The translations under genes were made by a program, and so were the position numbers. Below, piece after piece: positions 25,540 to 39,022 of a stretch of DNA of 39,022 nucleotides. Source of the DNA: an uncultured Oscillospiraceae bacterium. Lineage in GTDB: Bacteria > Bacillota > Clostridia > Oscillospirales > Oscillospiraceae. The stretch lies in contig CALXFQ010000011.1 in assembly GCA_944387625.1 (NCBI GenBank), forward strand, positions 1 through 39,022. The letters are read 5' to 3'. The notes under the pieces are model-generated. The model saw only the letters and a program-made list of their open reading frames with translations. It was not told the DNA's origin and made no database searches. Position 1 is the first letter of the stretch. Each line of letters starts with the position of its first letter.

Positions 25540-26583
25540 ATGGTCCAACTGGTGGAAAAGCTGGCGGCGGAGCAGAGCCTTACCCATGAGGAGCTGGTCC
25601 GTCTGATCCGGGACCGGGACGATGCCACCGCCCGGCTCCTGGCCCAAAAGGCGGCGGACCGGCGGCGCGGATACTACGGCGACCGGGTGATCCTTCGGGG
25701 GCTGATCGAGTTTACCAGCTTCTGCAAAAACGACTGTTACTACTGCGGCCTGCGCCGGTCCAACCGAAAACTCAGCCGCTACCGGCTCACCGGGGAGCAG
25801 ATCCTTGCCCAGTGCGGGAAGGGCTATGCCCTGGGCTTTCGATCCTTCGTCCTCCAGGGAGGAGAGGACCCTGGCTATAGCCCGCGGTCGATCGCCCAGG
25901 TGGTGTCCGCGATCAAGGATCGGTGGCCGGACACGGCGGTGACGCTGTCGGCAGGGGAGCGCAGCCGGGATACGTACCGGCTCTGGCGTGACGCCGGGGC
26001 GGACCGATACCTTCTCCGGGAGGAAACGGCGGACCGGGACCACTATGGGACGCTCCATCCCGGGGATATGTCCTACGAAAACAGGATCCGGTGCTTATAT
26101 GACCTGAAGGAGCTGGGCTACCAGGTGGGCTGCGGCTTCATGGTGGGCAGTCCCGGACAGGGGACGGAGCAGATCGTTCGGGACCTGGAACTGATCCGGC
26201 TTTTCCAGCCCCATATGGTGGGGATCGGCCCGTTCATCCCCCAGAAGGATACCCCCTTTGCCGGGGAGGGGACAGGCAGCGCCGGACTGACCTGCTACCT
26301 GCTGTCGATCATCCGGCTGCTGGTCCCCAAGGCCATGATCCCGGCCACCACCGCCCTGAACACGGTCCACCCCCAGGGCCGGGCCTGGGGCCTGCGCTCC
26401 GGGGCCAATGTGTGTATGCCGGATCTTTCGCCTGTACAGGTGCGGGGGCAGTACGCCATCTACGATCGGAAGCTGTGTACCGGCCTGGAGGCGGCGGAGG
26501 AAGTGGAAGCGTTGAAAGAGCAGATCCGGTCCCTGGGACTTCTCCCGGACATGGGCCGGGGAGACCACATCGATCTGCGATAG
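25540..26583 (+). CDS. hydE: [FeFe]-hydrogenase H-cluster radical SAM maturase HydE
   Basis: A 347-residue radical SAM enzyme. The 4Fe-4S site CKNDCYYC (Cys 62, 66 and 69) is followed by GLRRSNRKLSRYRL, typical of HydE. Other family stretches are FVLQGGEDPGY, LREETADRDHYGTLHPG and GIGPFIPQKDTPF. HydE acts on an iron-cyanide-CO synthon during assembly of the 2Fe subcluster. GGGAGGG precedes the ATG. No clear promoter was found in the 65-bp gap after the yolD-like gene; a lone TATGAT at 25503 lacks a -35. The gene starts the hydE-hydG-hydF cluster. Confidence 0.94.
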   Translation: MVQLVEKLAAEQSLTHEELVRLIRDRDDATARLLAQKAADRRRGYYGDRVILRGLIEFTSFCKNDCYYCGLRRSNRKLSRYRLTGEQILAQCGKGYALGFRSFVLQGGEDPGYSPRSIAQVVSAIKDRWPDTAVTLSAGERSRDTYRLWRDAGADRYLLREETADRDHYGTLHPGDMSYENRIRCLYDLKELGYQVGCGFMVGSPGQGTEQIVRDLELIRLFQPHMVGIGPFIPQKDTPFAGEGTGSAGLTCYLLSIIRLLVPKAMIPATTALNTVHPQGRAWGLRSGANVCMPDLSPVQVRGQYAIYDRKLCTGLEAAEEVEALKEQIRSLGLLPDMGRGDHIDLR

Positions 26584-26594
26584 GAGGATGCCAT

Positions 26595-28004
26595 ATGTAC
26601 GATGTTCGGTCCATGATCGCGGAGGAGTTCATCGATCACCAGCAGATCCTGGAGACCCTTGCCTATGCCGACGCCCATAAAGACGATGAAGCCCTGATCG
26701 ACCAGATCTTGGACAAGGCCCGGCGCTGCCAGGGCCTGGATCACCAGGAGGCCTCGGTGCTTCTGGCCTGTGAGCGGCCGGATAAGATCGCCCGGCTGTA
26801 CGAGCTGGCCCGGCAGATCAAGGAGCGGTTCTATGGGGACAGGATCGTGATGTTCGCGCCGCTGTACCTGTCCGATCACTGCGTCAATGGATGTATTTAC
26901 TGCCCCTATCACCGGCAAAACACCCACATCCCCCGGAAGAAGCTGACCCAGGAGGAGATCCGCCGGGAGGTGATCGCCCTGCAGGACATGGGCCACAAGC
27001 GGCTGGCGCTGGAGGCCGGGGAGGACCCGGTGAACGTGCCGCTGGAGTACATCCTGGAGTCCATAAAAACGATCTATGCCGTGCGCCACAAAAACGGCGC
27101 GATCCGCCGGGTGAACGTGAACATCGCCGCCACCACCGTGGAGAACTATCGCAAGCTGAAAGCGGCCCAGATCGGCACATACATCTTGTTCCAGGAGACC
27201 TACCACAAGGAGCGCTATGAAAAGCTCCATCCCACCGGCCCGAAAAGCGACTACGCCTACCACACCCAGGCCCATGACCGGGCCATGGAGGCAGGGATCG
27301 ACGATGTGGGCCTGGGGGTCCTGTTCGGCCTGGAGGGATACCGATACGATCTTGCCGGATTGCTGATGCACGCGGAGCACCTGGAAGCGGTCTTCGGAGT
27401 AGGGCCGCATACGATCAGTGTGCCCCGGATCTGCCCGGCGGAGGATATCGACTTGGAGCGCTTCCCGGACGCGGTGCCCGATCCGATCTTTGAGAAGATC
27501 GTGGCCTGCATCCGGGTGGCGGTGCCTTACACCGGGATGATCGTTTCCACCCGGGAAAGCCCTGCCGTTCGGGAGCGGGTGCTTCGGCTGGGGGTATCCC
27601 AGATCTCCGGCGGCAGCAGCACCAGCGTAGGCGGCTACGCCCAAAAGGCGGAGGACACCGCCCAGTTTGACGTGAGCGACCGGCGGACATTGGAAGAGGT
27701 GGTCCGCTGGCTCATGGAGATGGACCAGATCCCCTCCTTCTGCACCGCCTGCTACCGGGAGGGCCGCACCGGGGACCGATTCATGGCCCTGTGCAAGTCC
27801 GGCCAGATCTCCAACTGCTGTCTGCCCAACGCCCTGCTGACTTTGAAGGAGTATCTGATCGACCATGCCGGGCCTGAGACCCGGTCGATCGGCGAGGCGC
27901 TGATCGAAAAGCAGCTGCAGAACATTTCCCGGGAAAAGACCCGGGCCTTGGTGATCCAGCGGCTGAAGCGGATAGAAGAAGGCCAACGGGACTTTCGGTT
28001 TTGA
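26595..28004 (+). CDS. hydG: [FeFe]-hydrogenase H-cluster radical SAM maturase HydG (tyrosine lyase)
   Basis: A 469-residue enzyme that cleaves tyrosine to give the CO and CN ligands of the H-cluster. The radical SAM site CVNGCIYC is at Cys 96, 100 and 103. The C-terminal auxiliary-cluster motif C-x2-C-x22-C is exact (Cys 383, 386 and 409). ISGGSSTSVGGY and PSFCTACYREGRTGDRFM separate it from ThiH. AGGAGG precedes the ATG at 26595, 11 bp after the hydE stop; a longer open frame upstream lies inside hydE and is rejected. Confidence 0.96.
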   Translation: MYDVRSMIAEEFIDHQQILETLAYADAHKDDEALIDQILDKARRCQGLDHQEASVLLACERPDKIARLYELARQIKERFYGDRIVMFAPLYLSDHCVNGCIYCPYHRQNTHIPRKKLTQEEIRREVIALQDMGHKRLALEAGEDPVNVPLEYILESIKTIYAVRHKNGAIRRVNVNIAATTVENYRKLKAAQIGTYILFQETYHKERYEKLHPTGPKSDYAYHTQAHDRAMEAGIDDVGLGVLFGLEGYRYDLAGLLMHAEHLEAVFGVGPHTISVPRICPAEDIDLERFPDAVPDPIFEKIVACIRVAVPYTGMIVSTRESPAVRERVLRLGVSQISGGSSTSVGGYAQKAEDTAQFDVSDRRTLEEVVRWLMEMDQIPSFCTACYREGRTGDRFMALCKSGQISNCCLPNALLTLKEYLIDHAGPETRSIGEALIEKQLQNISREKTRALVIQRLKRIEEGQRDFRF

Positions 28005-28014
28005 GGTGAGCGAC

Positions 28015-29217
28015 ATGGCAGATCTGAACAGCACCCCCGCCGGGGAACGGCTCCACATCGCCTTTTTCGGGCGGCGGAACGTGGGCAAATCCAGCCTGGT
28101 CAACGCCTTCACCGGCCAGGACCTGGCGATCGTATCCGATGTGCCAGGGACCACCACCGACCCGGTGTACAAGGCCATGGAGCTGCTGCCCCTGGGGCCG
28201 GTGATGATCATCGACACCCCCGGTATCGACGATGTGGGCAAGCTGGGCCGGTTACGGGTGGAGAGGACCCGGCAGGTCCTGACCAAGACGGATCTGGCGG
28301 TGGTGGTGACCGACGCCACCCGCCCGCTGGATGAAACAGAGTCCCAGCTCCTGGCCCTGATCCGGGAGCAGGGGACACCCTGCATCCTGGTGAAGAACAA
28401 AGCGGACCTTTTATCGGACCTTCCTTCGGAAGCGCCGGGGACGATCTTTACCAGCGCCGCCACAGGCTTCCACATTCGGGAGCTGAAAGAGCTGGCGGCC
28501 CACACCGCCGCCCAGCGCTCGCCGTCCCGGCCTCTGGTGGCGGACCTTTTACAGCCGGGGGATCTGGTGGTGCTGGTGGTGCCGATCGACAAGGCGGCCC
28601 CCAAGGGGCGGCTGATCCTGCCCCAACAGCAGACCATTCGGGCTATTTTGGACGCCGGAGGGATGGCCCTGGTGTGCCGGGAGGTGGAGCTGGACCAGAC
28701 CCTTTCCAGGCTGGCCGCGCCGCCCAAGCTGGTGATCACCGACTCACAGGTCTTTGGCCTGGCGGACCGAGTGGTCCCCCGGGAGATCTTGCTGACCTCC
28801 TTTTCCATCCTCATGGCCCGGTACAAAGGGGACCTGGCTCTGACGGTGGCTGGCGTGGCCGCCCTGGACCGATTGCGGAACGGGGACCGGGTGCTGATCT
28901 GCGAGGGCTGTACCCACCACCGACAGTGCGGGGACATCGGTACGGAAAAACTTCCCCAATGGATCCGGGCCTACACCGGCAAAGAATTGGAGTTCTCCTT
29001 CACCTCTGGCCGGGATTTCCCGGCGGACCTGGGGGACTACGCTCTGGCTCTCCACTGCGGAGGGTGTATGCTGGGCAGTCAGGAGATGGCCTGCCGCCAG
29101 CGGCTGTGCGCGGACCAGGGCGTGCCGGTGACCAATTACGGCATCGCTATCGCGTTTCTTCACGGCATCCTGGGCCGCGCCCTGGAGCCATTCCCGCAGA
29201 TCCGGGCCATGCTATAA
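28015..29217 (+). CDS. hydF: [FeFe]-hydrogenase maturation GTPase HydF
   Basis: A 400-residue scaffold GTPase that receives the 2Fe precursor and delivers it to the hydrogenase. The N-terminal GTPase domain has P-loop FFGRRNVGKSS, G2 PGTTTDPV, G3 IDTPGIDD and G4 KNKADLL. A dimerisation domain follows, then the cluster domain with CTH (Cys 299, His 301) and HCGGCM (Cys 348 and 351), the CxHx(n)CGGC motif of HydF. The ATG at 28015 is preferred because GAGGTGAG lies just upstream; a GTG three codons earlier would overlap that site. It follows hydG by 10 bp. Confidence 0.95.
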   Translation: MADLNSTPAGERLHIAFFGRRNVGKSSLVNAFTGQDLAIVSDVPGTTTDPVYKAMELLPLGPVMIIDTPGIDDVGKLGRLRVERTRQVLTKTDLAVVVTDATRPLDETESQLLALIREQGTPCILVKNKADLLSDLPSEAPGTIFTSAATGFHIRELKELAAHTAAQRSPSRPLVADLLQPGDLVVLVVPIDKAAPKGRLILPQQQTIRAILDAGGMALVCREVELDQTLSRLAAPPKLVITDSQVFGLADRVVPREILLTSFSILMARYKGDLALTVAGVAALDRLRNGDRVLICEGCTHHRQCGDIGTEKLPQWIRAYTGKELEFSFTSGRDFPADLGDYALALHCGGCMLGSQEMACRQRLCADQGVPVTNYGIAIAFLHGILGRALEPFPQIRAML

Positions 29218-32539: not shown

Positions 32540-32579
32540 AAAAAGAAATTCCGGATGCAGATCCCTCCGCATCCGGAAT
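32540..32579 (-). terminator. Intrinsic terminator after the PH-domain gene
   Basis: ATTCCGGATGC (32579-32569 on the minus strand) pairs with GCATCCGGAAT (32558-32548) and is followed by TTCTTTTT. It ends the kinase/PH-domain transcription unit before YfhO. Confidence 0.85.
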
Positions 32580-32583
32580 ATGT

Positions 32584-32979
32584 TCATTCGGTCAGGTCGT
32601 CCCAGTCGTCCAGATCGTCCGTGTCGGAGGAGATCTCATTGACCCGGACCCGGCGCTTCATCTTCTGCTGCTCCACCTGCTGATGGATCAATTCCTTGAC
32701 CTCCATAGGGGACTTGATGTTTTTCAGGGCCAGAGTGGGCTGGGTGCTGTCCGAGGAGATCACGGTGACGGTGCCAACGCCGAAGATCCGCTGCCACAGG
32801 CCGCGCTGGGTGTTGATGTCCCGGACCCGGTAGAGCAGCAGCTCATCGTCCTTCAGGCTGAGAAAGCCGGTGGACAGGAACAGCCGGTCCTCGCTAAGAC
32901 GATAGCGGGTGAAGCTCAGCGGAAGCCCCAGGATGCGCTTTCGGTCAGACCAAATATACGCGGTGTCAGTCTTTGCCAT
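32584..32979 (-). CDS. PH domain-containing protein (bacterial PH, YdbS-like)
   Basis: A 131-residue soluble protein. Its central strands (RILGLPLSFTRYRLSEDRLFLSTGFLSLKDDELLLYRVRDINTQRGLWQRIFGVGTVTVIS) are typical of bacterial PH-like domains, with the conserved LYRVRDI and GxGTV pieces. A C-terminal helix (SPMEVKELIHQQVEQQKMKRR) and an acidic tail (DTDDLDDWDDLTE) follow. It lacks the membrane helices usual in YdbS/YdbT. GGAGG precedes the ATG at 32979. It lies 42 bp after the kinase-like receptor gene on the same strand and is probably co-transcribed, so a signalling or membrane-adaptor role is possible but unproven. Confidence 0.82.
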   Translation of the reverse strand: MAKTDTAYIWSDRKRILGLPLSFTRYRLSEDRLFLSTGFLSLKDDELLLYRVRDINTQRGLWQRIFGVGTVTVISSDSTQPTLALKNIKSPMEVKELIHQQVEQQKMKRRVRVNEISSDTDDLDDWDDLTE

Positions 32980-33021
32980 AAAGAGTCCTCCATTCTTTCT
33001 TTCCCGGTCCAGTTTCAAATG

Positions 33022-36000
33022 TCAAACGATGGTGAATTGGACCGAGGATACATACATCCCATTCATGTACAGGTCCAGCACGTACTCACCGGGGACGGCA
33101 GGCAGCTGGTCCAGGGCGATCGCGGCCCGATGCCGATACCAGACCTGCCGCCAGGGACGCTCTTGGGCGATCTCCTGGATCAGGGCGTTGCTGCTGTCCC
33201 GGATCACCACGGTGGTGGCGAGAGGCTCGTCGGAAACAGGATAGGTAGCGTTCAGCTGGATCAGCAGCGCGGCAGAGGACCCGGCGGTGAACTGGGTGAC
33301 CGGCGCGTCCGCGTCCAGGTCCGCCGCTGCCCAATTGTCCTTGGCCGGGGTTTGGTGGAGGGACAAGAGCATATCCGCGGCGGTGACATAGAAGCCGGAG
33401 AAGGTATCGGTCTGCACCGGGCCGTAATTGACCTCCTCGCTGAAGAAGGTGATCTCCCCCTGGGGGCAGATCCGGAAGGCATAGGCGCAGCCGGGACTGA
33501 GGACGATCGTGGCCTGCTCCTCCGAACAGGCCAGCCAGATCGGATCGCCGCCGTCGATGGTGTATTCCACCAGCCACCCATCCGCAGGGGCCTGGCCGGT
33601 GTAGGTCCATGTAAGGCCCAAAGACCAGGGGGAGAGCCGCTCCATGGTGAGGTGGGTGACGTTGATCGGGTGGGCGGTAACGGTGGTCTGGGCGCTTTGG
33701 GTCATGCCCTGGGCGGTGACCACCAGGGTATAGCCGGTGGCCTCATCCAGGTCTTCAAACACCGCTTCCGGCGCTTCGGTGGTGATGGTCCGATCATCTC
33801 CGGCATCGTTGTAGATCCGAACAGTCCAGCTTTCAGGGTCGGCGCCTTCCGGCGTTTCCCAGACCAGGGTCAGCTTGCCGTCCTGGTAGGACTGGACCTC
33901 CAGGTCCTGGGCCAGCACCACCTTTTGGGGCGTGAAGCGAAGCTCGTCCGAGCCGGTGACATGGATGCCGCCGGCACTGATAAGGCGGAAGGTGTATTCC
34001 TGGCCCACCGTCAGGCCGGTGATCGTAGTGTGATTGCCGGTGACCTGGACGGTCTGAGGTTCCTGGCCGTCGGCGGAATACTCCACCAGCCAGTCGGTGG
34101 CGGTGGGGACATCGGCGGTGAACAGCAGGACCACCGAGCCGTCCTCAGGGCCGACGGAGGCGGTGAAGTCCAGTACCTGGATCTGGGGCAGGGTGGTGCA
34201 GCTGTCTGAGGTGATGCCCTGGAGCTTGTGATCGCCTTGGATCGTCACACGGACGGTATAGTGGGTGCTGGGGGCAAGCTCGGTGAAGGTGGCGCGGCCG
34301 TCCACCACCTGGGCGCTGAACGTGTTGCCGTAGGTGTCGGTACAGGTCACCGTCAGCAGGGCGCCGTCGGTCTTTGTGTCCACCTGGACCGTGATGCTGG
34401 TATGGTCGGCCTGGAGATGTAAAGCGTCGATGGTTTGAAGATAATGGTTGTGGTAGTACCAGCTTCCGCAGAAGATCGCCACGGCGATCGCCGCCGCCGC
34501 GATCAACAGACCGATCCAGGGCCGCTTCTTTCGCACCGCGCCTGGGGCCGTTCCCTCCGGGGAGGCCGGGGGCGGATCGTCCTGGGCCTCTTCCGCAGGG
34601 CCGTCCGTCTGCTGTTCCGGCGCGGACCCGTCCTCTGTCGGCGCTTGATCTTCCGACGGCAGGTCCTCCTGCGGAGAGGCAGGCACGATCGGAGGGGGGA
34701 TGGGGACATCGATCGGTCCAGGGACCACTACCGGCTCCGGCGCTTCCACCTGCATCAATTCCTCCGCCTGGGCCAGGATCTGGGCAACCTCCGTGGTGAC
34801 CCCTTCCTCCGTCAGCTCGGTGCGGGGGTATAGAGGCTTCTCTTCCGGGGCCGCATCCTCCGCTTCCTCAGTTCCTTCGGCACCTGCCGGGACCTCTTCG
34901 GGACTTTCCACCGGCGCTGTGGTTCCTTCCGGCTCTGCTTCCGGCGCTTCTTCCTCCGGGGCAGATTCGTCCCCCACAGGGGCTTCCTCCGGCAGATCCG
35001 GGGACTGGGACGGATCACCTTCCTCAGCAGGCGGCTGGGGCGGCTCTTCTGGCTCGGCGCTCTCCGGGGGCATCTCCTCCGGCGGCTCCTCGTCGCCGAT
35101 CTGGGAGAGCAGCTGGGCCAGCTCCCGGTCGTTTTCCTCTTCCGTCAGAAATTCCTCCGGCTCTTCCTCCGGCTCCAAGATCGGATCTATCGGCGGCGGG
35201 ATGATGGGGGTGTCATTGACACCGTTGCGCTGCATATAGTCCACCAGGGCCTGGCCCATTTGCCCGGGATCGGCCCATCGGTCCTGAGGATCCGGGGCGC
35301 AGGCCTTCAGAATGATCTCAGCCAGCTCATAGTCCGCGTACATGGGCGGAGGCAGGGGCTGGTCCGCTGGATGATCGTCAGGCGGGAGCTGGCAGTTGTT
35401 GTACAGCTGGTACATCACCAGGCCCAGCGCGTACAGGTCCATGGTCTGGTCCAGGGACGCGTAGGCGTCGTTTACCTCCGGCGGCGTGTACCGGCTCCGA
35501 TAGCGCTCCGGCAGGGAGGCATATTTCAGTGAGGACAGGCCGATCACGCCCAGATCGCCGATGCAGTAGCCCCGGGTGTCGGTCAGGAAGATGTTCTCCG
35601 GCTTCAGGTCCACATACAAATACCCGATCCGGCGGCACTCCGCCAGAGCCGCGCACATATCCAGCCCTAAGTTGATGGCGGACAGGTGGGTCAGCGGCTC
35701 CTGGATCATCTGCCGGGCCAGAGAGCGGCGGTAGGGGCTTAGAAAGTAGATATCATAGCCCACACCATCGTCCATTTTCACCACCTGGCTGGCCTGAAAG
35801 GGGAGGAAGCCGGCCAGCTTGCTCAACTGGCTCAAAACAGAGGCCTCCTTGATCGTGTCTTGGGTCAGATCCTGAAAATAACCCAGGGCCACCAGTTCAT
35901 TTTTGAAGGCACCGGTGAGCAAGAGGGCATCCAGCTGGTCTTGGCTCGCGGGGATGGAAACGATCTTGACCATGTACCGTTCGTCCGTATCCTCCCGAAG

Positions 36001-36090
36001 CGCGGGGCAGCAGCGGACGCCGTGGTGATCGCTGATCGGCTCTCCCATGATGAAGCCATCCAGAAGGGGAGATATCAATTTCGGTTCCAA
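33022..36090 (-). CDS. Atypical Ser/Thr protein kinase-like receptor with fibronectin-III-like ectodomains
   Basis: A 1022-residue single-pass protein. A kinase-like domain spans about 15-290. Lys 42 is the ATP-lysine candidate (YMVKIVS), YVDLKPEN puts the catalytic Asp at 161 and Asn at 166, DLG (179-181) replaces DFG, and PPE (203-205) replaces APE. No glycine-rich loop is visible and HRD reads YVD. A Pro/Glu-rich acidic linker runs from 296 to about 520. A basic stop and one helix follow (about 525-545), then four fibronectin-III-like domains (about 555-890) and a last beta domain. The start is a TTG with AAAGGAGG 11 nt upstream; the first in-frame ATG (36048) would cut the domain edge. 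Active kinase or pseudokinase is undecided. Confidence 0.82.
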   Translation of the reverse strand: MEPKLISPLLDGFIMGEPISDHHGVRCCPALREDTDERYMVKIVSIPASQDQLDALLLTGAFKNELVALGYFQDLTQDTIKEASVLSQLSKLAGFLPFQASQVVKMDDGVGYDIYFLSPYRRSLARQMIQEPLTHLSAINLGLDMCAALAECRRIGYLYVDLKPENIFLTDTRGYCIGDLGVIGLSSLKYASLPERYRSRYTPPEVNDAYASLDQTMDLYALGLVMYQLYNNCQLPPDDHPADQPLPPPMYADYELAEIILKACAPDPQDRWADPGQMGQALVDYMQRNGVNDTPIIPPPIDPILEPEEEPEEFLTEEENDRELAQLLSQIGDEEPPEEMPPESAEPEEPPQPPAEEGDPSQSPDLPEEAPVGDESAPEEEAPEAEPEGTTAPVESPEEVPAGAEGTEEAEDAAPEEKPLYPRTELTEEGVTTEVAQILAQAEELMQVEAPEPVVVPGPIDVPIPPPIVPASPQEDLPSEDQAPTEDGSAPEQQTDGPAEEAQDDPPPASPEGTAPGAVRKKRPWIGLLIAAAAIAVAIFCGSWYYHNHYLQTIDALHLQADHTSITVQVDTKTDGALLTVTCTDTYGNTFSAQVVDGRATFTELAPSTHYTVRVTIQGDHKLQGITSDSCTTLPQIQVLDFTASVGPEDGSVVLLFTADVPTATDWLVEYSADGQEPQTVQVTGNHTTITGLTVGQEYTFRLISAGGIHVTGSDELRFTPQKVVLAQDLEVQSYQDGKLTLVWETPEGADPESWTVRIYNDAGDDRTITTEAPEAVFEDLDEATGYTLVVTAQGMTQSAQTTVTAHPINVTHLTMERLSPWSLGLTWTYTGQAPADGWLVEYTIDGGDPIWLACSEEQATIVLSPGCAYAFRICPQGEITFFSEEVNYGPVQTDTFSGFYVTAADMLLSLHQTPAKDNWAAADLDADAPVTQFTAGSSAALLIQLNATYPVSDEPLATTVVIRDSSNALIQEIAQERPWRQVWYRHRAAIALDQLPAVPGEYVLDLYMNGMYVSSVQFTIV

Positions 36091-36122
36091 CGCGCTGGTC
36101 GCCTCCTTTCGTTCGTCCTTTT

Positions 36123-36151
36123 ATCATAATGGGATCGGCAAGAAAATGCAA
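36123..36151 (-). promoter_or_regulatory. Promoter of the kinase-like receptor gene
   Basis: On the minus strand TTGCAT (36151-36146) and TATGAT (36128-36123) have 17-bp spacing, about 33 bp before the TTG start. The -35 box is the same hexamer as at the aro promoter. Confidence 0.6.
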
Positions 36152-36286
36152 CAGCTTTTTAAGTCTTTTGCCCACGATTCCTGTCGGATCCGGGGAAAGA
36201 CCCGGAGAAAGTCGGGCTTTGTCGATGGACGGGGAGGGCGTTCTTCGGTTTACGATAATTTTTTGTAAATTGTGCGAGGTGGGAGG
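36152..36286. other. Divergent intergenic region between receptor and BIG_2 protein genes
   Basis: It separates two outward promoters and holds an imperfect inverted repeat, AAAGACCCG and CGGGCTTT, near 36196-36220. No gene is seen. Shared regulation of the divergent genes is possible. Confidence 0.4.
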
Positions 36287-36315
36287 TTGTTTTCTTTCCC
36301 ATTCGGTGTTATAAT
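36287..36315 (+). promoter_or_regulatory. Promoter of the zinc-ribbon/BIG_2 protein gene
   Basis: TTGTTT (36287-36292) and TATAAT (36310-36315) are 17 bp apart, with TGT before the -10 (extended -10). Confidence 0.7.
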
Positions 36316-36365
36316 GGCGAGGAAGTAGAGCACGGCAGGTGGTCCTGCCGGAATGGAGGTCAAGG

Positions 36366-37892
36366 ATGAAGAAGATCATTTGCGATGTCTGCGGCACCGA
36401 CTATCCTGAAACAGCGGCACAATGCCCGATCTGCGGCTGTGCCACTACAGGCGGTGAGCAGACGTCTGCCGGAAATAATGAGCCGGAGGCGGCGTCTTCC
36501 TATACATATGTCAAAGGCGGGCGCTTCTCCAAGTCCAACGTCAAGAAGCGTCTGAAAGCCAGCCAGGCCCAGCGGGACGCGGTGGTCCAGCAGCAAAAGC
36601 ACCAGGAGCCTGACGAGGATGATGAAGACGAACCCTACACCGAAGAGAGCGGGATCTCCAACAAGGGCCTGATCGTGATCGTGGTGCTGCTGCTGTTGGC
36701 GATCATTGCCGTGTCCAGCTATATCGCGCTGACTTTGTTCGGCGGCGGAGAACGGGAAGATCCCTCCCAGACCAGCCGGCCCGCGAGCTCCACCAACTCT
36801 TCCACCAATACGGAACAGACCGAGCCTTCTCAGGGCCAGGGCGAGGTCCCCTGCACCGGCCTGACCATCCAGGACAACGCCCTCACCTTCAGCGCCGCCG
36901 GCGCCAGCCAGGCCCTGAAGCTGGTGGTGGAGCCTGCGGATACTACGGATGTGATCACCTTCAGCACCACCGATCCCAATGTGGCCGTGGTGGATGCCAC
37001 CGGCCGGGTCACCGCTGTGGGGACCGGCCGCGCGGAGATCGTGGTCCAGTGCGGCGAATTTGAAGCACGGTGTACCGTGGCCTGTGAGATCGAGCAGACC
37101 ACCGATCCCAGCGAGCCTACCAGCCCCTCCGAGCCTACAGAGCCGCAGCAGATCCTGGAGCTGAACCGGGAGGATTTCACCCTGGACGATGACGACCGGA
37201 CCTGGCAGCTCTACAGCGGCGACATCGATCGCAGCCAGATCGTCTGGTCCAGCGACGATCCCACCGTTGCCACGGTGGAAGACGGACTGGTCACCGCGGT
37301 GGGGAGAGGAAGCACCACCATCCGGGCCAAATACGGCGATCAGGAAGCCACCTGTAAGGTCTATGTACGGCTGACGGAGCCTCAGGAGGAAACGCTGGAG
37401 CTGAACCGGGAGGAGTTCACCCTGTCCCAGGCCGGGGAGACCTGGCAGCTCTACACCGGCGACTTAGACCGGGGCCAGATCACCTGGTCCAGCGACGACC
37501 CTTCCGTCGCCACGGTGGAGGATGGTCTGGTCACGGCCGTTGCCAACGGCGACACCACCATCCGGGCCAAGTACGGCGACCAGGAGGTCACCTGCAAAGT
37601 GTATGTGTCGATCTCTGAGGAGCCGGTCGATCCGGAGGTGACCTTGGTGCTTGATACATACCAGGGCTCCGGCGAGTTCACGCTGAGCCAGATCGGGGAG
37701 ACCCACCAGCTATTCAGCCAGGATAAGAACCCTGGGATCGACCCCAGCCAGATCGCCTGGTCCATCAGCGATACCGCTGTGGCCACGGTGGAAGGCGGCC
37801 TGGTCACCGCCGTGGGTGAAGGCAAGGCCACCATCACCGCAACTTACGGCGGTGAGGAATTCACCTGCATCGTTGAAGTCCGCCTGGGCTGA
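36366..37892 (+). CDS. Zinc-ribbon, single-pass membrane protein with BIG_2 (Ig-like) repeats
   Basis: A 508-residue protein. An N-terminal rubredoxin-like zinc ribbon (Cys 6, 9, 20 and 23) is followed by a basic and then acidic cytoplasmic linker. One membrane helix lies at about 102-123 (GLIVIVVLLLLAIIAVSSYI). A Ser/Thr/Glu-rich stalk leads to four bacterial Ig-like group 2 domains at about 155-238, 264-340, 344-420 and 426-508. Each contains the VATVEDGLVTAVG-like core, divergent in the first. BIG_2 domains usually bind surface polymers or other proteins. GGAGGT precedes the ATG at 36366. It is divergent from the kinase-like receptor, which has the same inside-helix-outside plan. The function is unknown; a partner or decoy of that receptor is speculation. 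Confidence 0.83.
   Translation: MKKIICDVCGTDYPETAAQCPICGCATTGGEQTSAGNNEPEAASSYTYVKGGRFSKSNVKKRLKASQAQRDAVVQQQKHQEPDEDDEDEPYTEESGISNKGLIVIVVLLLLAIIAVSSYIALTLFGGGEREDPSQTSRPASSTNSSTNTEQTEPSQGQGEVPCTGLTIQDNALTFSAAGASQALKLVVEPADTTDVITFSTTDPNVAVVDATGRVTAVGTGRAEIVVQCGEFEARCTVACEIEQTTDPSEPTSPSEPTEPQQILELNREDFTLDDDDRTWQLYSGDIDRSQIVWSSDDPTVATVEDGLVTAVGRGSTTIRAKYGDQEATCKVYVRLTEPQEETLELNREEFTLSQAGETWQLYTGDLDRGQITWSSDDPSVATVEDGLVTAVANGDTTIRAKYGDQEVTCKVYVSISEEPVDPEVTLVLDTYQGSGEFTLSQIGETHQLFSQDKNPGIDPSQIAWSISDTAVATVEGGLVTAVGEGKATITATYGGEEFTCIVEVRLG
37155..37634 (+). repeat. Two tandem 240-bp units encoding BIG_2 domains
   Basis: Units begin at 37155 and 37395 with the same CTGGAGCTGAACCGGGAGGA and are exactly 80 codons long, indicating a fairly recent in-frame duplication. 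A diverged third unit follows from about 37644. Confidence 0.8.
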
Positions 37893-38227: not shown

Positions 38228-38255
38228 TTGACTGGCCAGATCGGTGTGGTATAAT
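38228..38255 (+). promoter_or_regulatory. Promoter of the CobW-type GTPase gene
   Basis: TTGACT (38228-38233) and TATAAT (38250-38255) are 16 bp apart, with TGG before the -10 (extended -10). It is the strongest-looking promoter in the window. No Zur-like palindrome was recognised around it. Confidence 0.8.
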
Positions 38256-38291
38256 ATGTTGGATATTTTGAAACAGAAGGTGTTTTTTACA

Positions 38292-39022
38292 ATGACAAAG
38301 ATCGATATCTACAGCGGCTTCCTGGGCGCGGGCAAGACCACGCTCATCAAGAAGATGATCCAGGAGGCCTACACCGGCCAGCAGCTGGTGCTGATCGAGA
38401 ACGAGTTTGGCCAGATCGGCATCGACGGCGGCTTCCTCCAGGACGCGGGCATCAACATCACGGAGATGAACTCCGGGTGCATCTGCTGCTCTCTGGTGGG
38501 CGACTTCGGCAAGGCGCTGGAGCAGGTCCTGCAGACCTATCACCCGGACCGGGTGATCATCGAGCCTTCCGGCGTAGGCAAGCTCTCCGAAGTGATCGCC
38601 GCCGTGCGTAAGGTCACCACCGATCAGGTGGAGCTGGGCTACACGGTGGCGGTGGCGGACGCGGGCAAGGTCAAGGTCTATATGAAGAACTTCGGTGAGT
38701 TCTACAATGACCAGATCGAAACCGCCTCCACCATCGTCCTGTCCCGTACCGACGCCATCCCTCAGGCCAAGCTGGATGGGGCGGTAGAGCTGCTGCGCCA
38801 GCACAATGACCACGCGGCTCTGGTCACCACCCCCTGGAACGAGATCACCGGCGCTCAGCTGGTGGAGGCCATGGAAGGGAAAAACTCCGTGGCGGACACG
38901 CTGGCGGAGCTGGAACAGGAGCACCACTGCTGTCACGGCCACCACCATGACGAGGAGGACGGGGAGCACCACTGCTGTCACGGCCATCACCATGATGAGG
39001 AAGAGGGCGAGCACCACTGCTG
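38292..39022 (+). CDS. CobW/G3E-family GTPase, putative metallochaperone (3' end outside window)
   Basis: 243 codons are present and the frame is open at the right edge. A P-loop GFLGAGKTT lies near residue 9, the Glu-rich IENEFGQIGIDG follows, and the metal-binding CxCC motif GCICCSL lies at about 60. IIEPSGVG and the G4-like SRTD complete the GTPase. G3E proteins use GTP to insert or deliver Zn, Co or Ni. From 38919 the sequence enters a His/Cys/Asp/Glu-rich tail of 15-residue repeats. The C-terminal CobW domain is not seen before this tail, which may make it a short CobW-like or UreG/HypB-like variant. AAGGTG precedes the ATG. Confidence 0.87.
   Translation, partial: MTKIDIYSGFLGAGKTTLIKKMIQEAYTGQQLVLIENEFGQIGIDGGFLQDAGINITEMNSGCICCSLVGDFGKALEQVLQTYHPDRVIIEPSGVGKLSEVIAAVRKVTTDQVELGYTVAVADAGKVKVYMKNFGEFYNDQIETASTIVLSRTDAIPQAKLDGAVELLRQHNDHAALVTTPWNEITGAQLVEAMEGKNSVADTLAELEQEHHCCHGHHHDEEDGEHHCCHGHHHDEEEGEHHC
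38919..39022 (+). repeat. 45-bp tandem repeat encoding a His/Cys metal-binding tail
   Basis: Units at 38919-38963 and 38964-39008 and a partial unit from 39009 each encode EHHCCHGHHHDEE(D/E)G. Each unit has five histidines and two adjacent cysteines. The array continues past the window edge. Confidence 0.9.

Follow-up and report, generated by a model that had tools for sequence, protein, structure and literature searches.

The gene at 33022..36090 (minus strand) of a 39,022-nucleotide stretch of uncultured Oscillospiraceae DNA, hereafter the window, raises the question of what a kinase-fold membrane receptor does when half of its relatives have given up the catalytic base. An initial annotation had posed this as a choice between an unusual active kinase and a pseudokinase signalling across the membrane. 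Its observations were confirmed overall, including the coordinates, strand and frame of the open reading frame (ORF), and its interpretation was supported in part. The ORF encodes 1022 residues from a TTG start, carries Pfam kinase and fn3 matches, and has orthologues in 58 family genomes. A ribosome-binding site (AAAGGAGG, 36102..36109, minus strand) lies 11 nt upstream of the TTG, and AGGAGG is likewise found upstream of the starts of most homologues.

The presumably cytosolic end of the protein has the fold of a protein kinase. AlphaFold2 modelling of residues 1-303 (35182..36090; this and all further features of the gene are on the minus strand) with 10 relatives as input gave a pLDDT of 88.6 and a pTM of 0.87 with the kinase subdomain order present, and the top Foldseek match of the domain in the PDB was Mycobacterium tuberculosis PknB (6i2p, E 2e-14). 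Structure prediction, which the initial annotation had proposed as a check of the ATP pocket, thus returned a kinase fold, the pocket being judged by its secondary structure, by the conservation of its residues and by the match of the fold. Pfam detects Pkinase at residues 131-237 (39 bits against a cut-off of 31.7) and PK_Tyr_Ser-Thr at 127-271, while an extra helix (residues 50-58) and a long alphaC (65-89) follow beta3. The catalytic residues and motifs are exactly those first described, with the beta3 Lys42 within VKI (codon 35965..35967), the catalytic loop YVDLKPEN at residues 159-166 (35593..35616), which holds Asp161 (codon GAC, 35608-35610) and Asn166, the DLG at 179-181 (35548..35556) with the metal-binding Asp179, and PPE in place of APE at 203-205 (35476..35484), in which Glu205 is invariant in 63/63 aligned sequences. 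The probable alphaC Glu is Glu82 (codon 35845..35847; Glu in 58/63 aligned sequences). The glycine-rich loop is indeed unrecognisable, as ISDHHGVRCC at residues 19-28 (36007..36036) has Ser, His and Val at the canonical glycine positions 20, 22 and 25 and does not fit GxGxxG; Gly24 remains at the loop tip, where it is retained in 49/60 family members. The GxGxxG loop is typical of Hanks-type kinases without being strictly required by them. The window protein has the fold of the Hanks-type superfamily and its Lys, HRD Asp, Asn and DFG Asp, and lacks none of the residues (Lys, HRD-Asp or DFG-Asp) whose loss defines a pseudokinase, a loss that is found in 31/60 family members. With K42, E82, D161, N166 and D179 all in place, the window copy may, as far as its residues can tell, be an active kinase.

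The remainder of the protein is laid out as a receptor. An acidic Pro/Glu linker (residues 301-525, 34516..35190; 30% E+D and 20% P), measured at 225 residues where 220 had been estimated, leads to a single transmembrane helix predicted by hydropathy at residues about 526-544 (34459..34515) and preceded by RKKRP. Beyond it lies the putative ectodomain (residues 546-1022, 33025..34455), made up of Fn3 domains and a C-terminal beta domain, so that the fibronectin-like part also stood as annotated. Pfam finds fn3 in four stretches (E = 7e-17), and the best Foldseek match in the PDB is the four-domain fibronectin fragment 3t1w. An AlphaFold2 model of the ectodomain, built from two sequences, reached a pLDDT of 78.9 but a pTM of only 0.39, and therefore the single domains are reliable and their arrangement is not. 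The protein is accordingly an Fn3 receptor in the sense of an Fn3 ectodomain that follows one transmembrane helix. This receptor layout is real and conserved, since kinase and fn3 domains occur together in all 28 members scanned with Pfam (the search for homologues with the same domain order that had been proposed), the helix count is one in all members of sufficient length, and most ectodomains are about 460-520 aa long. Surface adhesion proteins often contain Fn3 and Big_2 domains, and together with the nearly constant ectodomain length this could be taken to mean that the Fn3 domains of the receptor serve mainly to anchor material of the wall or surface, with the cytosolic domain as a passive plug; such a protein would have no need of a conserved ATP and metal site, however, and this reading is the hardest of all to credit. 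Two short linker motifs were also seen. The window linker (34516-35190) holds the proline motif VVVPGPIDVPIPPPIV, which is akin to one in L116 of the same genus and to the kinase-adjoining IPPPIDPI, while a recurrent EPVRFADxxxLDDxFxxxFAPD-like motif lies directly after the kinase domain in the linkers of L122, L123, L125, L127, L131, L144 and L154, from several other genera, and was not seen in the window linker.

The overall plan resembles that of the PASTA kinases (PknB/PrkC/Stk1, NF033483), which likewise combine a cytosolic kinase, a linker, one transmembrane helix and a modular beta-rich ectodomain, and PknB is the closest fold. The window protein differs from them in having Fn3 instead of PASTA domains, no canonical glycine loop and a beta3-alphaC insertion, and its family in that the HRD Asp is often Asn. 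The protein does not belong to the PASTA kinases, as it is without PASTA repeats and scores 39 bits against the NF033483 cut-off of 450. The suggestion that Fn3 domains stand in place of PASTA repeats thus holds for the protein and does not hold for the genome, in which a canonical PASTA kinase is encoded elsewhere, next to a PP2C-like gene.

To define the family, 400 genomes of the bacterial family were searched, 104 of which had a match at E <= 1e-10, and the family clade was drawn at E <= 1e-44, comprising 58 genomes including that of the window. Two further members came from Oscillospiraceae MAG records (L003 and L004), and residue counts refer to 60 members, three outgroup kinases having been set aside from 63 aligned sequences. 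All 10 sampled genomes of the window's genus carry a member, and full-length proteins are mostly 800-1100 aa. The other families of the order hold only the parent group of clostridial transmembrane kinases (L005, L006, L170-L172 and L196-L215), at about 27-33% identity. The beta3-alphaC insertion is common to both groups, and P47 and G60 also occur in L005 and L006, but the parent-group kinases examined have a canonical HRD and Gly loop (24/24; DFG detected in 23/24), and those scanned with Pfam have very varied ectodomains (TPR, LRR including LRR+Big_2, Big_2/Big_3 or DUF2963). Therefore, the changes of the Gly loop and HRD in the Fn3 family are a derived state. Within the family, 47/60 members have no glycine at any of the three canonical loop positions and only three members have all of them, so that a lost glycine loop characterises the family and is nothing special to the window gene. 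Thus, the loop decayed early on, and the HRD Asp became labile afterwards. The Fn3 clade may already be named in the classification of bacterial STKs into 42 families.

The most variable of the catalytic positions is the one that defines catalysis. Of the 60 members, 29 have D at the position of Asp161, 30 have N and one has G, whereas Lys42 is kept in 58/60, Asn166 in 59/60 and the DFG-Asp179 in 57/60. Glu205, Asp218 and Arg271 are each present in 60/60 and show no change on the tree. On a maximum-likelihood tree built without the HRD Asp column, the D/N state changed at least 13 times, 10 of these changes being forced by well-supported branches, as compared to 2 changes at Lys42, 5 at Glu82, 1 at Asn166 and 3 at Asp179 by the same count. 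Irreversible loss would require 16 losses, and a reversible two-state model was favored over it (lnL -31.2 vs -35.2) in a comparison made on a single tree with simple assumptions. The codons that were checked are GAC or GAT for D and AAC or AAT for N, which are a single transition apart. Two sister species of the window's genus, L117 and L118, differ in D vs N at 75% identity, while some lineages have D throughout, such as the clades of L140-L156 and L130-L148. The HRD Arg has been lost in many members, and it was considered as a residue co-varying with the D/N state; it differs in only 1/10 independent pairs, and thus no link was shown.

The N-type domains are under purifying selection and show no decay. 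Their alignment columns have a mean entropy of 1.57 bits, as compared to 1.55 for the D-types (r = 0.85), and dN/dS of close pairs is 0.05-0.16 for N/N and 0.01-0.23 for D/D. Sequencing error and pseudogenes were rejected as sources of the Asn, given its presence in 30 genomes and the dN/dS of 0.05-0.16. A dying kinase, in which the D/N pattern would be neutral drift within a non-functional domain, could account for the degraded glycine loop and for the many members without the HRD Arg, but the strong purifying selection in N-types contradicts drift, and the many invariant positions and the conserved partner gene and architecture likewise speak against it; we consider ordinary decay scarcely credible.

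The D- and N-types do differ in one respect, as further catalytic losses occur in 4/30 N-types and 0/29 D-types, all of which keep Lys, Asn and DFG-Asp. In L129 both the beta3 Lys and the catalytic Asn are gone, L135 and L142 have GLG instead of DLG, and L167 has Lys changed to Arg and DLG to NLA. At the level of sequence, the confinement of these losses to N-types is suggestive only. It is what would be expected once catalysis has been dropped, and could mean that the family is a mixed one. Its D-types, including that of the window, would then be functional Ser/Thr receptor kinases whose Gly loop is non-canonical, and its N-types would be pseudokinases of particular lineages, each of which lost catalysis on its own and took up a narrower regulatory role. 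The clades that are uniformly D or uniformly N would fit such a division. However, the contrast of 4/30 with 0/29 is small and phylogenetically clustered, constraint elsewhere in the domain is equal in the two types, N occurs as single tips within D clades, and reversal is favored over irreversible loss, and thus we regard a mixed family as rather unlikely, though well worth keeping in view.

A catalytic residue that is swapped while the rest of the domain stays intact suggests that this domain often serves to bind ATP as a switch and not to catalyse a reaction. JAK2 JH2, which has been compared with HER3, has Asn for Asp166 and yet binds ATP; both retain Lys72 and Asn171, and the glycine loop of JAK2 JH2 is partly degraded (PMC4718504). 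In residue pattern, the N-type relatives of the window protein match these two, which belong to the eukaryotic tyrosine-kinase lineage, whereas D and N alternate among orthologues in the Fn3 family. We would give about even odds (roughly 50%) that the protein is an ATP-binding receptor switch for which phosphotransfer is dispensable and which works with the product of a divergent neighboring gene. In such a receptor, the extracellular Fn3 domains of a single-pass membrane protein would sense or hold something, and the signal would travel along one helix and the flexible acidic linker into the cytosol, where the kinase-fold domain would be under selection mainly for its role as a conformational switch or scaffold that binds ATP and metal. 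If the function common to all members does not need phosphotransfer, Asn can replace the catalytic Asp, and probably give way to it again, while the gene is kept. The broader proposal, to which we would give somewhat less than even odds, is that the catalytic Asp is evolutionarily reversible, a switch of the JAK-JH2/HER3 type having arisen in bacteria and toggled at least 13 times with a kinase-competent form, acting via a dedicated membrane partner with a Zn-ribbon and an Ig-like domain. Several points tell against a switch. The degraded loop glycines leave ATP binding by the domain unproven, catalysis may matter in the lineages that are uniformly D, and sequence alone cannot show that the Asn-types are inactive, as the plant kinase ILK1 illustrates, in which D319N (HRD to HRN) yields a hyperactive enzyme (PMC9403797).

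This ILK1 precedent could be extended to the whole family, so that all members would be active, with an Asp that is not essential as a base and possibly Mn2+ or another substrate class. Consistent with this, the site is restricted to D or N (with one G), and Lys163, Asn166 and the DFG-Asp are kept in most members, but D to N abolishes activity in most kinases (PMC9403797) and the DFG-Asp or Lys is also gone in some N-types, which makes general activity improbable. The ILKs of metazoa and plants do resemble the Fn3 receptors in that the loss of catalytic residues took a different course from one lineage of the family to another (PMC9403797), and differ from them in domain order and organisms. 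The kinase fold might also perform another ATP-dependent reaction that does not need the HRD Asp, such as AMPylation or glutamylation; SelO and SidJ are bacterial precedents (PMC12599244). The metal- and Lys-site residues are retained, in line with this, but no residue pattern of the SelO or SidJ type backs it and the fold is closest to PknB, and thus we consider it very improbable.

Known bacterial pseudokinases offer a further comparison. DYD, ActPs1-3, GLW, CP1 and DLHK share the kinase fold with the Fn3 family, and several are membrane-anchored, but what groups them is divergence either of all three motifs or of those that bind ATP and metal, with some variation among single CP1 members (PMC12599244), whereas change in the Fn3 family is mostly confined to the HRD Asp. 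Membership in two of these families was considered and rejected. DYD is defined by a beta3 Lys changed to Arg and the lack of an alphaC Glu (PMC12599244), while K42 and E82 are present and conserved here; ActPs2 is defined by a beta3 Arg, HRN and a DFG deletion (PMC12599244), of which the Asn alone is shared, and in relatives only. EssB/YukC, a Firmicute transmembrane pseudokinase with a non-catalytic role (PMC12599244), has lost all three motifs and serves type VII secretion, and its residue pattern is absent from the Fn3 family. In the bacterial pseudokinase families described so far, the motifs of the ATP and metal sites have mainly been lost too (PMC12599244), while here the chemistry residue alone toggles. 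Our interest in the family stems from this, as changes that recurred, and that may be reversible, have left half of a strongly conserved family without the catalytic base. To the choice first posed between active kinase and pseudokinase, the homologues give an answer that neither option foresaw, as the window copy keeps every catalytic residue, but Asn stands for the HRD Asp in half of its relatives and the state has changed at least 13 times. Its D and N orthologues of otherwise equal constraint form a natural mutant series in which the kinase domain can be asked to declare itself an enzyme or a switch, and matched pairs like L117/L118 allow a direct test, in a setting of gut Clostridia that are abundant yet little studied.

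The gene expected to work with the receptor had been missed by the initial annotation. It lies at 36366..37892 (plus strand), divergent from the kinase gene across an intergenic region at 36091..36365, and encodes a CxxC...CPxC N terminus that is Zn-ribbon-like by its cysteine motif alone, the Pfam match of the protein being to Big_2 (E 6e-34), followed by a linker, one predicted transmembrane helix (about 36669-36725) and the Big_2 ectodomain. The partner is found beside the kinase in 53/57 informative loci. BLAST identified a divergent counterpart in 50/60 loci, the window included, with the cysteine motif and transmembrane helix in 50/50, and three more were recognised by motif (L127, L160 and L168); L150, L165 and L169 end too close to be informative. 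It is missing beside the kinase in L119, L139, L152 and L161, although the L119 genome has a full-length partner on a separate contig (G195:C76). In the same 400 genomes, partner matches at E < 1e-30 were all in kinase-bearing genomes except one (G100), where the match lies at a contig start and an adjoining kinase would be cut off. No other neighbor of the kinase loci is comparably conserved. Judging from this adjacency, the two proteins would act together, most simply through contact of their ectodomains, their cytosolic parts or both, and the partner is the first candidate for what the kinase domain acts on. A literature search for bacterial Fn3 kinases or a Zn-ribbon/Ig-like partner returned nothing specific.

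Several minor observations concern the partner. Weaker full-length relatives of the Zn-ribbon/TM/Big_2 type (about 340-375 aa) occur in the kinase-less genomes G305, G337, G091, G391, G180 and G206. The parent-group kinases L196 and L197 carry Big_2 within their own ectodomains, which hints at an association between kinase and Big_2 modules. A short basic motif, G[GAK][RK][FYV][SAR], is present in the partner's cytosolic linker in 16/50 loci vs 0.25 expected on shuffling, a figure to be read with the motif having been picked after seeing the data; at 36500-36590 of the window it reads KGGRFSKSNVKKR. It is a possible docking or phosphorylation site.

On its other side, the kinase gene is followed by a bPH_2 gene (32584..33018, minus strand) that starts 3 nt past the kinase stop, or else at an alternative ATG at 32982, and a terminator-like hairpin (32548..32579, minus strand) lies 3' of bPH_2. 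Thus, the kinase and bPH_2 genes look like a short operon. bPH_2 and YfhO were nevertheless rejected as general functional partners, since neither adjoins other kinase homologues. A scan of the shared intergenic region for the sigma-70 consensus found no promoter, which is weak evidence, Rfam found no RNA elements near the locus, and the gene had no match among plasmids. Elsewhere in the window, three adjoining ORFs (25540-29217) resemble by eye the hydrogenase maturation genes HydE, HydG and HydF, and a CobW-like metal GTPase with CCHGHHHDEE repeats (38244-39020), also recognised by eye, extends past the end of the window. The genome has a lone FHA domain (G000:C4:50757-50948, in a 593-aa frame), which might act as phospho-reader to either the PASTA kinase or the Fn3 receptor.
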